Part shown: positions 7,949 to 33,439 of the stretch, piece after piece
Layout of the letters: every line of letters begins with the position of its first letter
How positions within the stretch are numbered: position 1 is the stretch's first letter
DNA from: an uncultured Elusimicrobia bacterium
Lineage (GTDB): Bacteria; Elusimicrobiota; Elusimicrobia; Elusimicrobiales; Elusimicrobiaceae
Direction of reading: 5' to 3'
NCBI GenBank assembly: GCA_947306425.1
Contig: CAMZGO010000011.1
Coordinates: 1-42,852 of the forward strand
DNA: 42,852 nucleotides
Notes under the pieces: model-generated
What the model was told of the DNA's origin: nothing
What the model saw: only the letters and a program-made list of their open reading frames with translations
Databases searched by the model: none
Made by a program: the position numbers and the translations under genes

Positions 7949-8038
7949 TGTATAATGGTGTGCTAATTAGTTATTATTTGGATATAATGTCCGATAAATG
8001 CCCTGGTTTTCGCGGTTTGAGGATTTTGTTTTTATAAA

Positions 8039-8860
8039 ATGTATCTTTATAAAAAGAATAAAAGATTTACAGCTGTTAACAGACGCTATGCCCGTCAAGC
8101 ACGAATTAGGAAAATAGCAATTTTCCTGACATTTTTGGCTTTTGCGGAGGGATTTCTTTTATTTTGGCTTGAAGGCAGAGATTTTTGGAAAGATATGAAA
8201 ATGCCCTCTGCTTTAACTTGGCATATAAAACAAGTAAGCATTAATGCCCCTACGGAAAATTTGGAACTTAAAATTGAAAATGAATTAAAAAAGCATCAAA
8301 TAAAATTAAACCAACCGTTTTCAAGCACAGATTCATGTCTTTTGGAAAACGATTTAAGGAAGAATGTAGAACAGGTAAAAAGCATTAAAGTACAAAGAAA
8401 ATTTTTTAAAAAAGAACTATTAATTACGGTTGAAAAATATAAGCCTTTTGTTTATGTTTTAACACCGCAAGACAGTTTTTTTATAACACAGGAAGGAATT
8501 ATTTTCCAAGATGATGAAGAAAAAAATAAAGAGGGGTTTCTTAATGTCTATTTAAATGCTAAAATAGAAAGTGATATTTTAGCCAAAGAATTGGTACAAT
8601 TTATTAAAGAGATAAAAAATACCTCTTTACGTAAGACAGATAGTGTTTTTGTTGATTTTGAGGGGCAAACAGCACGTTTTGAAACACCTTTCGGCCCTGT
8701 AAAATTAAAATATTTTAAAGACGCAAAAATACAACTTTCCGTATTAACGGAAATTTTGGAAATTGCAAAAGAAAAAGATTTTACTCTCCCCTGCTTAGTA
8801 GACTTTACTTACTTTGACAGAGGGAAGGTGTACCTAAAACAAAATTATAAGGAATTATAA
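8039..8860 (+). CDS. ftsQ: Cell division protein FtsQ
   Basis: FtsQ is a bitopic membrane protein that links cytoplasmic and periplasmic parts of the divisome. The 273-residue product has a basic cytoplasmic tail of about 24 residues and one transmembrane segment (about 25-44). A POTRA-like domain follows at about 60-130, with the pattern LRKNVEQVKSIKVQRKF. A beta-rich FtsQ domain containing a FFITQEGIIF-like strand comes next. Sequence conservation in FtsQ is always weak. The call rests on this architecture and on its position one base upstream of ftsA. No Shine-Dalgarno is obvious before the ATG. Confidence 0.85.
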   Translation: MYLYKKNKRFTAVNRRYARQARIRKIAIFLTFLAFAEGFLLFWLEGRDFWKDMKMPSALTWHIKQVSINAPTENLELKIENELKKHQIKLNQPFSSTDSCLLENDLRKNVEQVKSIKVQRKFFKKELLITVEKYKPFVYVLTPQDSFFITQEGIIFQDDEEKNKEGFLNVYLNAKIESDILAKELVQFIKEIKNTSLRKTDSVFVDFEGQTARFETPFGPVKLKYFKDAKIQLSVLTEILEIAKEKDFTLPCLVDFTYFDRGKVYLKQNYKEL

Positions 8861-30633: not shown

Positions 30634-31179
30634 TTACATTTGCCAATAACCGTCAGATATTTTTTTTGAAGCAAACATTGAACAATAATAATTGTCCTCT
30701 TTGTAAGAACCATCATAACATTCTAACCTACCTGTCCCTTCGGAATAAGCTAAGCTATAAAATTCAACATATTCACCATTTTCTACTTCACTGATAGTTG
30801 TTCCTTTTTTTACTCGTATAAGAGAAGGAAAATAAGGATTCGTTCCACCATCCCCCCAATAACATCCTCCATTTTCAAAACAAAACTCATCGGAACAGCA
30901 TATTTGACCGCCACACTCATCCATAAAACATCCCCAATCACTTGGTAATTCTATACCAATTTTATCGTTAGTTAGAATTCCACTCGTATGATCATTGTAT
31001 AGAATAAACTCCTGACCTCTTTCACGCATATATTTTAAAGTTATAAGTGCTTGCGATACTTTGCTTTTTTCCACTGCTTTGTTATACTGCGGCAAAGCAA
31101 CTGCGGCAAGTATTCCAATAATTAAAACAACTACTAATAATTCAACTAAGGTAAAACCTTTTTTACAATTTTTTAACAT
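30634..31179 (-). CDS. Type IV pilin / pseudopilin, cysteine-containing
   Basis: The 181-residue prepilin has the class III signal: MLKNCKKG is cleaved after Gly8, then [20 protein letters not shown] with Glu13 at the +5 position. The long helix [23 protein letters not shown] follows. The globular part is rich in cysteine (clusters near 94-117 plus two near the end), suggesting disulfide bonds outside the cell. Its first 40 residues nearly match the pilin at the window start, while the rest differs. AAGGAG precedes the ATG. The stop codon directly abuts the repeat copy at 30611-30633. It is read separately from the ncRNA candidate upstream, which has its own terminator. Confidence 0.9.
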
Positions 31180-31239
31180 TTTTTTCTCCTTAATTTAATT
31201 TTTACTGTAATTACAATTTTTTCTATTAAATACCTCCTA

Positions 31240-31275
31240 AATTTATAAAATAAAAACGGCTAATATATTTAGCCG
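31240..31275 (-). terminator. Intrinsic terminator of the ncRNA candidate
   Basis: On the minus strand CGGCTAA pairs with TTAGCCG around a five-base loop, then TTTTTATTTT follows. It lies about 60 bp upstream of the pilin ATG, so it separates an upstream minus-strand transcript from the pilin gene. Confidence 0.75.
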
Positions 31276-31327
31276 AATTCACTGACCAAAAGTAATAGCC
31301 GTGGTTTATCAATGAAGATAAACGCTC

Positions 31328-31359
31328 GATGCAAAATGAGTGGCCACTCATTTTGCATC
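31328..31359. repeat. Perfect 32-bp palindrome
   Basis: GATGCAAAATGAGTGG is followed at once by its reverse complement. It forms the longest stem of the ncRNA candidate. As DNA it could also bind a dimeric protein. Confidence 0.85.
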
Positions 31360-31495
31360 TTTAACGAACTATTTTTGAAGTGAATTCGTGCCTCTGAGTT
31401 TTCAAAAGCTCGCCGTATTTTTATACGGTTCCAAAAACAGATTACAAATTTCTTAGGGTTTTTAGCCCTCTGTAAATTAATTTAACCTCTAAATT

Positions 31496-31524
31496 ATAAT
31501 AACAAAAATTAATATTCCTTGCAA
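31496..31524 (-). promoter_or_regulatory. Promoter TTGCAA-17-TATTAT for the ncRNA candidate
   Basis: On the minus strand TTGCAA (31519-31524) and TATTAT (31496-31501) are 17 bp apart, just after the amidase stop. The spacing and -35 hexamer match the promoters at 16246 and 37425. Confidence 0.6.
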
Positions 31525-31531
31525 ATTGTGA

Positions 31532-33439
31532 TTAACGTTTTTGCTGTAAATTTATTTCTTCGGCTTTCAAAACAGCATTTTCTAATTCTTTGCGTTTCCT
31601 TTCCATTTGCAGAGGAATATTTTTCTGTGCCCATTTTGGATTCTCAAAATACAAAACACCCTCCGCTATAGAAGATGCAAGCAAATCAATAAAACGCTGC
31701 TTTTTTAAAAGTTCTTCTTGCCAAGGTACCATCATATATAAACTTTCAATCAAAACAGCAGGAACCTGCGGCATACCGCGTGTTACCGCGAAATCAGCTT
31801 GCAAAATGCCGTTATTGGGAAGGGGTATATTTTTTGTATAACTCCTCTCCATTGCTTTTGCAAGCGGTATGCTTTGTTGGTAATAGTAATAAAAAGAGAA
31901 ACCGAGTTCGCGTTTAAGCGGATTAATATGGTCCGGTAAAGCATTTAGATGTAAACTCAAAAATAAATCCGGTTCAAAGAGGGATGCACGGTAAGTCCTG
32001 TCACTTAAACCTAAGGTCTCGGTTTCATCTTTTGTGATGAAAACCAAAGCACCGTATTTTTCAAGTTCTTTTTTTGTGGCAAGGGCTATTTGATAATTCA
32101 TTTCATATTCAAGCAGACCGCTTGGACCGACAGCACCGTCGTAAGGAACCGTTCTCTTCGGCGAATGGCCGGGGTCCAAAACAACACGAAGAAGGTTAAG
32201 CGGTTTTTTATCAGTAAATTTAAAATCCGGAGAACCAACAAGTTCAAAAATCAAATTATTTTCCTCATACCTATAATTAAAGCCGCGCAAACGCTTTCCG
32301 TTTTGAAAACGCGCCGTAATCTTTTTACTGGTCGGTGATAATACTTGATAATCAAGCCCGCTGATTAATTCCGTAGTTGCGTTAGTATTAAAAGTATTAA
32401 ATGCTTGGGTATTATGCAAGATTATTCCAAATGTTTGGTCCGTTTGTGATGTAGCAAAACTAACACGTTCTGTATTTTTTACGATTATTTTTGTTTTATT
32501 ATCTGCTTCTTCCACTGCAATTTGCCAGGCAATATTTCTTGGAAGTGAAACTTTTTTTTGGTTATTAAGTAAGGTTTTGTCCAAATAACCTATCTTATTA
32601 TCATCTAAAATAATTTTATAAAAGCCGTCTACAGCACCTTCAGTCAAAACAGTATTAAAAATACGGGTTTGAAAATCATATCCGCCGGTTTTATTAGGTT
32701 CCAAACGTAAACGCAAATTTTGACCGCGTACTTGTGCAGGTTTCAAAATTTCTTCTTCCGGTAAAATTTTAATTTTACCTTTACTTGATACCTTTCCCTT
32801 ATATTTACCGCCGTACTCATATATGCGATAAACAGGTTTTTTACCTGTTTTGAGAACTTTGTCTGCCCCTAAAATTACGGTTTTTTTATAAATACTCGGG
32901 GTTAAGACTTCTTCCTCAAGTTCCATTTCTTCAAATAAAGGAGGCAAGGAAACTGTTACTTTATGGTAAGGGCTTGCTTCCACTTTAAATGTGATTTCCG
33001 AAGTGTTTGAAAGTTCACTATCACCGACGGGGAAAGCAGAATCTTCCATTAAGCGGGGTGTTTTAAAATAAGCGTTTTTATCAATCCCCTGAACATTTAT
33101 GTTGCGTACTGCCTTATATGTTTTATCCGCACTTTCGTACTGTAAGACCAAACTATTTAGGCCGGCTTTTACCGGAACATAACCCAAATAAGCACCGCTG
33201 GGATAGACATCAATTTCCCGTCCGTTTATCGTTAAAATGCCCGGGCCTAAAGTTTTACCAAAAATAAAAACACCTTTTGCACCCGCACCTATTTGTGCAC
33301 CTTCAGGAGGATATTCAACGGTAATAGGATAAATTCTATTAGGGTATTTTTCCCTCACCTCTAAACTTGGGGCTATGGGCAAAGCATACAATTGAACCGT
33401 TAAAAAAAGCAAAAAAATAAAGTAGGGTATTTTATTCAT
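31532..33439 (-). CDS. N-acetylmuramoyl-L-alanine amidase (Amidase_3)
   Basis: This periplasmic zinc amidase removes stem peptides from peptidoglycan, usually during cell separation. The 635-residue protein has a signal peptide (about 1-20) and a large beta-rich N-terminal region of about 400 residues. That region may include SH3-like and AMIN-like cell-wall or divisome-targeting parts. The catalytic domain starts near 418. Its zinc and catalytic residues are in VVLDPGHS, GLLEYEMN (Glu), FLSLHLNA (His) and VLIESLYM (Glu). A charged Lys/Glu helix ends the protein. It is longer than E. coli AmiC. The start is 25 bp from the divergent Nif3-like gene, with TATAAT about 20 bases upstream. Confidence 0.9.
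   Translation of the reverse strand: MNKIPYFIFLLFLTVQLYALPIAPSLEVREKYPNRIYPITVEYPPEGAQIGAGAKGVFIFGKTLGPGILTINGREIDVYPSGAYLGYVPVKAGLNSLVLQYESADKTYKAVRNINVQGIDKNAYFKTPRLMEDSAFPVGDSELSNTSEITFKVEASPYHKVTVSLPPLFEEMELEEEVLTPSIYKKTVILGADKVLKTGKKPVYRIYEYGGKYKGKVSSKGKIKILPEEEILKPAQVRGQNLRLRLEPNKTGGYDFQTRIFNTVLTEGAVDGFYKIILDDNKIGYLDKTLLNNQKKVSLPRNIAWQIAVEEADNKTKIIVKNTERVSFATSQTDQTFGIILHNTQAFNTFNTNATTELISGLDYQVLSPTSKKITARFQNGKRLRGFNYRYEENNLIFELVGSPDFKFTDKKPLNLLRVVLDPGHSPKRTVPYDGAVGPSGLLEYEMNYQIALATKKELEKYGALVFITKDETETLGLSDRTYRASLFEPDLFLSLHLNALPDHINPLKRELGFSFYYYYQQSIPLAKAMERSYTKNIPLPNNGILQADFAVTRGMPQVPAVLIESLYMMVPWQEELLKKQRFIDLLASSIAEGVLYFENPKWAQKNIPLQMERKRKELENAVLKAEEINLQQKR

Follow-up and report, generated by a model that had tools for sequence, protein, structure and literature searches.

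A multicopy family of predicted structured leader RNAs in Elusimicrobia, with a candidate transcription attenuator upstream of a pilin gene

Results

The window analysed in this study, a stretch of 42,852 nucleotides, is contig 11 of the 21-contig, 1,437,240-base genome of an uncultured Elusimicrobia bacterium of the family Elusimicrobiaceae. On its minus strand it carries a gene for an N-acetylmuramoyl-amidase-like protein (31532-33439; named by eye), followed by a gene for a type IV pilin-like protein of 181 amino acids with a prepilin N-terminal methylation motif (30634-31179; PF07963, 2.2e-9). The original prediction had placed a transcription unit for a structured RNA in the gap between them, and had taken this gap to be free of open reading frames (ORFs). 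Indeed, no convincing ORF was found between the amidase and the pilin gene. We describe here a structured RNA that is encoded in the gap on the minus strand (31525-31252). With a probability of about 0.72, we propose that it is a leader which acts in cis as a transcription attenuator of the pilin gene, one of a new multicopy family.

The minus-strand fold of the gap reaches -90.9 kcal/mol (z -6.65) and none of 100 shuffled sequences folded as well. The plus-strand fold has a z of -6.18, but a plus-strand RNA was ruled out, since the other strand carries the genes, the promoters, the terminators and the family as a whole; in this point the original prediction had to be corrected. The RNA is about 240 nucleotides long, and its terminator ends about 70 nucleotides upstream of the pilin start codon, before the gene, as had been anticipated.

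The promoter-like sequence TTGCAA-17-TATTAT, with TG, is located at 31524-31496 (minus strand; score 9/12). As mapped, the promoter (31493-31525) consists of the -35-like TTGCAA (31524-31519) and an extended -10 element, TGTTATTATAAT (31504-31493). At the other end a terminator-like hairpin on the minus strand ends at 31257 and is followed by T-runs. Of the good promoter and intrinsic terminator claimed for this gap, both were located, but singly both are within chance, with 5 promoter-like sites found (5.9 expected) and 2 terminators (1.5 expected). They are convincing only at the level of the family, because -10-like hexamers occur in 65 of 87 anchored copies, whereas a control stretch has them in 23 of 87, and because the lower terminator stem is 99.5% paired in relatives.

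The consensus structure comprises P1; P2 (CUGUUUUUGG/CCAAAAACAG), which encloses P3, P4 and one strand of a pseudoknot; P5; P6; and the terminator stem P7, whose loop holds the second pseudoknot strand. The whole structured leader in the window (31252-31490; all parts on the minus strand) ends in the T-run, and the covariance model described below matches 31252-31488 with 184.4 bits. Based on the family alignment, P1 (AGGG/CCCT) is located at 31455-31469, the 5' strand of P2, CTGTTTTTGG, at 31431-31440 and its 3' strand, TTCAAAAATAG, at 31369-31379. Between the P2 strands, the hairpins P3 (CCGTAT/ATACGG, 31413-31428) and P4 (31390-31409) are predicted by folding. The 5' strand of a putative antiterminator, AATAGTTCGT (31364-31373), overlaps the P2 3' strand. 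P5 (31328-31359), elsewhere the site of a 9-nucleotide palindromic loop, is exceptional in this copy, being the 32-nucleotide perfect palindrome of the original prediction, exact in its arms (31328-31343 and 31344-31359) and with a GGCC centre. P6 (GTTTATC/GATAAAC, 31304-31323; family alignment) is followed by the 5' strand of P7 (31286-31302), whose first nine bases, ACGGCTATT (31302-31294), double as the antiterminator 3' strand. The P7 3' strand and the T-run (31251-31271) form the intrinsic terminator according to hairpin scan and family alignment. The pseudoknot strands are CGAATTCAC (31388-31380) and, inside the P7 loop, GTGAATTCG (31282-31274). Their helix had been described as a 10-bp closing stem. 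It is present, but as a copy-specific helix whose topology depends on the fold: with the antiterminator formed it is nested, whereas in the terminated state it is a pseudoknot.

A DNA search of the same genome returned 22 matches, and 18 of its copies were aligned to build the covariance model. With this model the genome gave 50 matches (E<=0.001), which amount to 47 elements after subtraction of two antisense echoes and one partial match near a contig start; one of the 47 is weak (L107, 37.6 bits). All 18 genomes of the same genus (g1) contain model matches, 1 to 61 each. A scan of the phylum with stricter filters found the family in 91 of 340 genomes and 6 of 100 genera, namely in g1 (18/18), in g2 (61/66), in none of the other same-family genera (0/6) and in 12 genomes of the distant family f21. 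A laxer scan of 23 phylum genomes added one weak g2 match and none in g3-g6; in one f21 genome its matches numbered as many as 25. Genome G096, a single contig of 1,643,562 bases, has 76 prepilin motifs and no leader RNA match. The named relatives to which the neighbouring gene led are metagenome assemblies of Elusimicrobiaceae, and one carries the label rumen. Taken together, the matches and alignments indicate that the leader belongs to a large and so far undescribed family of structured RNAs, which Elusimicrobia gut bacteria carry in multiple copies.

As had been supposed, the RNA lies outside known families: in the whole window and 13 loci with members, no Rfam 15 family reached its gathering score except tRNA and 5S rRNA. 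Matches of a permissive scan (mir-9256, mir-548, L20 leader and others) were below gathering scores, mostly to the palindrome, and were rejected as chance. No description of the family was found in the literature; supplements were outside this search, so that an earlier unnamed prediction is possible. The accessible portions of PMC8040213 and PMC2864571 yielded no mention of Elusimicrobia or pilins. In viral contigs a single P2-stem pattern gave 9 stretches with weak model matches, mostly to P2 only, and no phage carrier was found by that one search; a plasmid search gave one 26-base match only.

Two loci are unusual. In genome G299 of family f21, L109 3633-3882 is an f1-like copy whose private pseudoknot core is the same as that of the window copy, which may reflect either horizontal transfer or a small contaminating contig. 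In genome G314, tandem leaders five bases apart (L130 1268-1495 and 1501-1735, minus strand) precede a gene for an EcoRI-type methylase and resemble tandem riboswitches.

For the comparative analysis relatives were taken best-scoring first (the best 80 further copies among the matches listed). The 212 aligned rows (98 + 61 + 53) were reduced by hand by 20, these being antisense echoes of the palindromic terminator and partial or duplicate rows. Dropping exact duplicates left 188 rows and dropping near-duplicates 176, of which 174 have a parsed P2.

Among the 18 own copies, compensatory changes were found in 40 of 55 predicted pairs. In 60 distinct relatives outside the model, 95.0% of cells, nested and pseudoknot, were paired, versus 79.4% in shuffled and 34.5-45.7% in slid alignments, double changes were present in 49 of 64 pairs, and covariation was 0.497 versus 0.204 when shuffled; this alignment was fitted to the nested part and not to the pseudoknot, whose register was chosen on the same alignment. 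In the chosen register, 8 of 9 column pairs are paired in 90-95% of rows, as compared to mostly 10-65% in neighbouring registers. The original prediction had asked for relatives and covarying stems as checks, and both are found in abundance.

The pseudoknot strands of each copy fit each other. Mean energy with the own partner is -16.4 kcal/mol versus -6.8 kcal/mol with the partners of other copies, and the own partner beats all 60 sampled others in 144/176 copies. For P2, the antiterminator, the lower and upper terminator and the pseudoknot, the own-partner mean was reached by 0 of 1000 partner permutations in both family groups. These groups contain 127 f1-type and 47 f21-type rows, labelled by alignment, with the f21 rows L109 and L110 in the first and the f1 row L131 in the second.

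The 3' end of P2 and the next bases (AACAG-YYG) complement the terminator 5' arm (CGGCUGUU). This pairing, the antiterminator, excludes both the P2 base and the terminator, and in 173 of 176 copies its energy is -5 kcal/mol or lower. In nine of 174 copies the terminator 5' arm has A in place of G. All nine carry the matching T on the antiterminator side, and six keep a fitting partner on the terminator side; the nine are cells and not events, some being related. This co-change is the cleanest evidence for a conserved antiterminator. In predicted folds without the terminator 3' arm, the antiterminator forms in 160/174 copies. Full-length predicted folds contain the terminator in 127 of the 174 and the antiterminator in 46, and the two lie within 5 kcal/mol of each other in 111. 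The median fold difference of -2.8 kcal/mol changes to -8.9 kcal/mol, with 3 antiterminator folds left, when the loop is exchanged with that of another copy, which suggests that it is the private helix that holds the competing folds close to balance. As expected of an attenuator, the sequence places an intrinsic terminator between promoter and start codon, and a mutually exclusive antiterminator is kept by covariation.

Downstream genes were counted as same-strand ORFs of at least 60 amino acids with a Shine-Dalgarno sequence that start within 400 nucleotides, for the 176 copies with at least 400 nucleotides downstream. Such a gene follows in 156 of 176 copies, compared with 26/107 for the divergent upstream control. 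The median gap between leader and gene is 62.5 nucleotides, and in 76/158 cases it is 60 nucleotides or less, so that the shortest cases are too close for a separate promoter. By motif, 90 of the 158 genes are pilin-like (23 own, 48 from f1 relatives, 19 from f21), 59 are other and 9 are TPR-like, the last an undercount as the filter misses some. Pfam naming of 20 downstream proteins, including the window pilin and one without a family, returned, among other names, LicD, glycosyltransferases 2 and 8, sulfatase-type proteins, nucleotidyl transferase, outer-membrane beta-barrel, staphylococcal nuclease, subtilase, type I restriction N-terminus, SNF2/PLD helicase, and N6/N4 and EcoRI-type DNA methylases. 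The own genome (1.44 Mb) has 108 prepilin N-terminal motifs, a minority of them with a leader.

In several near-identical pairs of copies across genomes, the shared sequence begins 26 to 104 nucleotides before the element, with unrelated sequence further upstream; in other such pairs it runs to the end of the DNA compared. Two leaders with different genes have only the sequence from -35 to +260 in common. These breakpoints suggest that promoter plus leader behaves as a unit which moves with and between accessory genes. In L116 as compared to L112, a restriction-like gene is gone from about 30 nucleotides past the terminator and the leader is almost unchanged. In the named relative L087 the amidase site has a pilin gene and no leader RNA, and a run of 17 T (8029-8045) lies just upstream of the promoter-like sequence of this pilin gene. 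Such T tracts are typical of slipped-strand phase variation.

A 6-nucleotide palindrome occupies the apical loop of P5 in 111 of 176 copies and is lacking in 65. Among P5 loops of 9-11 nucleotides it is present in 108 of 110, or 19 of 21 distinct loops with 2.3 expected from shuffling; UAAUUA, UUAUAA, UCAUGA, AUUAAU, UUGCAA, CACGUG, UCUAGA, UUCGAA and UAGCUA all share this position. The loop palindrome is kept despite changing sequence, as expected of a kissing-loop homodimer like that of the dimerization initiation site (DIS) of human immunodeficiency virus 1 (HIV-1). The flanks are arranged as 2+6+1 in 72 copies. The own copies span several palindrome classes, at least UAAUUA, UCAUGA and UUAUAA. 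An intramolecular partner was considered and rejected: for palindromes other than UAAUUA, AUUAAU and UUAUAA, the same hexamer was found elsewhere in the own RNA in 0/24 copies. Other copies have alternative P5 tips, among them a 33-nucleotide form whose AGUA/GAAA internal loop by eye is like loop E (sarcin-ricin); tips with an internal loop of this kind occur in L043, L093, L095, L090 and L097.

Discussion

The proposed attenuator would operate as follows. The RNA would start at AGAGG, a few bases past the -10 box, and during synthesis the P2 3' strand would pair with the terminator 5' strand to form the antiterminator, extended outwards by the helix private to each copy. Once the terminator 3' arm is made, the RNA could refold as P2 plus terminator, and the polymerase would stop before the gene. 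The winning fold would set the expression of the pilin or another accessory gene, the competition between folds presumably regulating read-through. A ligand or a protein at the P2/P3/P4 junction, or pairing of the P5 loop with another leader, might bias the outcome.

Several observations weigh against this interpretation. By the filter used, 20 of 176 copies have no Shine-Dalgarno ORF within 400 nucleotides, and some leader-gene gaps exceed 200 nucleotides. Most of the 108 prepilin motifs have no leader, which is thus not needed for pilin expression as such; other leader RNAs may lie upstream of the leaderless prepilin genes. The sequences are related, so that the permutation counts are not probabilities, and the balance of the folds is rough since pseudoknot energy is outside the folding model. 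Finally, the window copy has a short hairpin, GGCTAA/TTAGCC, followed by T (31273-31252), which could terminate even in the antiterminator fold.

Within the attenuator reading, the input might be a bound protein or a ribosome instead of a small molecule or another RNA. This is possible, although we consider it unlikely. Many copies have GGAG at the putative 5' end, and P2 is conserved and U-rich. In most own copies (alignment A1, by eye) the GGAG is followed about 10 nucleotides on by ATG, often with a stop codon directly after it, but this ATG is missing in many relatives, and a conserved leader peptide was therefore dropped. A specialised NusG paralogue (LoaP/RfaH-type) was not found: 21 of 23 genomes have one NusG match, carriers and non-carriers alike, the exceptions being G095 with two partial matches and the incomplete G010 with none. 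As no second NusG is present in carriers, a NusG-type antiterminator protein is unlikely. Cyclic di-GMP (c-di-GMP) as input was set aside as uninformative, since carriers and non-carriers among the genomes tested have GGDEF proteins alike.

The original prediction had left two options, a free small RNA or a termination-controlled leader. A free-standing small RNA would act in trans, its terminator being the normal end and the downstream genes having other promoters. The RNA is compact and highly structured with its own promoter and terminator, its palindromic P5 loops suit RNA-RNA contacts, and at full length the terminator fold is favoured (127/174). We nevertheless regard this option as improbable, since a plain small RNA has no use for a conserved antiterminator pairing and the same-strand gene in 156/176 copies often starts within 40 nucleotides of the T-run. 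A leader is favoured by the conserved same-strand gene, the short gaps and the covarying, mutually exclusive antiterminator and terminator helices.

Very improbable is that promoter and leader form a mobile module, or a DNA recombination site, that has no regulatory role and spread with accessory genes. It would fit this reading that in several pairs whose upstream genes differ the homology breaks off just before the promoter, and that the cargo consists of accessory genes. However, the covariation of RNA pairs and the T-run of the terminator speak for selection acting on the RNA, and neither a mobility enzyme nor a terminal repeat or target duplication was noticed, with no systematic search made.

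For the P5 palindromes of the proposed attenuator, RNA-RNA contact between leaders seems the natural reading, with a dimeric protein as the alternative. Tentatively, and with more doubt than belief, we suggest self-pairing attenuators: P5 loops would dimerise leaders of the same locus, or of loci with the same palindrome, and bias the choice between antiterminator and terminator. If true, dimerising leaders would coordinate or exclude the expression of dozens of pilin, surface-sugar and restriction genes, a phase-variation-like logic by RNA-RNA contact and without DNA change. The palindromic loops allow a test of whether mRNA leaders communicate by dimerising.

Few cis-regulatory RNA systems would be as dense as this family, which reaches about 60 model matches in a genome of some 1.5 Mb; the bacteria that carry it are host-associated and have hardly any genetics. 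The family provides a handle on how a bacterium with more than 100 prepilin-like motifs chooses among them. In its pilins, sugar transferases, LicD and restriction-modification systems, the gene set of the leaders resembles the kinds of gene that usually phase-vary.

The bacterial RNAs OLE, ROOL and GOLLD are free RNAs. They are homo-oligomeric, and their intermolecular contacts, including kissing loops, leave covariation (PMC12286853, from the portion available). They are larger than the leader RNA and gave no match in the Rfam scans. The HIV-1 DIS has a nine-nucleotide apical loop with a six-nucleotide palindrome and flanks of 2+6+1 (PMC4066764, likewise from the portion available), the exact arrangement of the 72 copies mentioned above. 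The loops described here, as candidate dimerisation sites, differ in belonging to bacterial leaders, in having mostly AU-rich palindromes and in flanks that are not always purines. From the part of the literature available, c-di-GMP riboswitches (GEMM) control pilus and adhesion genes by termination, as is proposed for the leaders; the leader fold differs and no GEMM family matched in Rfam. The Elusimicrobia RNA would work like an attenuator or riboswitch outside the named Rfam classes. With terminator/antiterminator riboswitches and attenuators it shares a 5' leader, an intrinsic terminator before the gene and a covarying, mutually exclusive antiterminator. It differs from these in that a genome can carry it dozens of times, on accessory genes for surface and defence functions, in a frequent palindromic P5 loop, and in an outer antiterminator helix that each copy has to itself and that is also positioned for a pseudoknot with the terminator loop.
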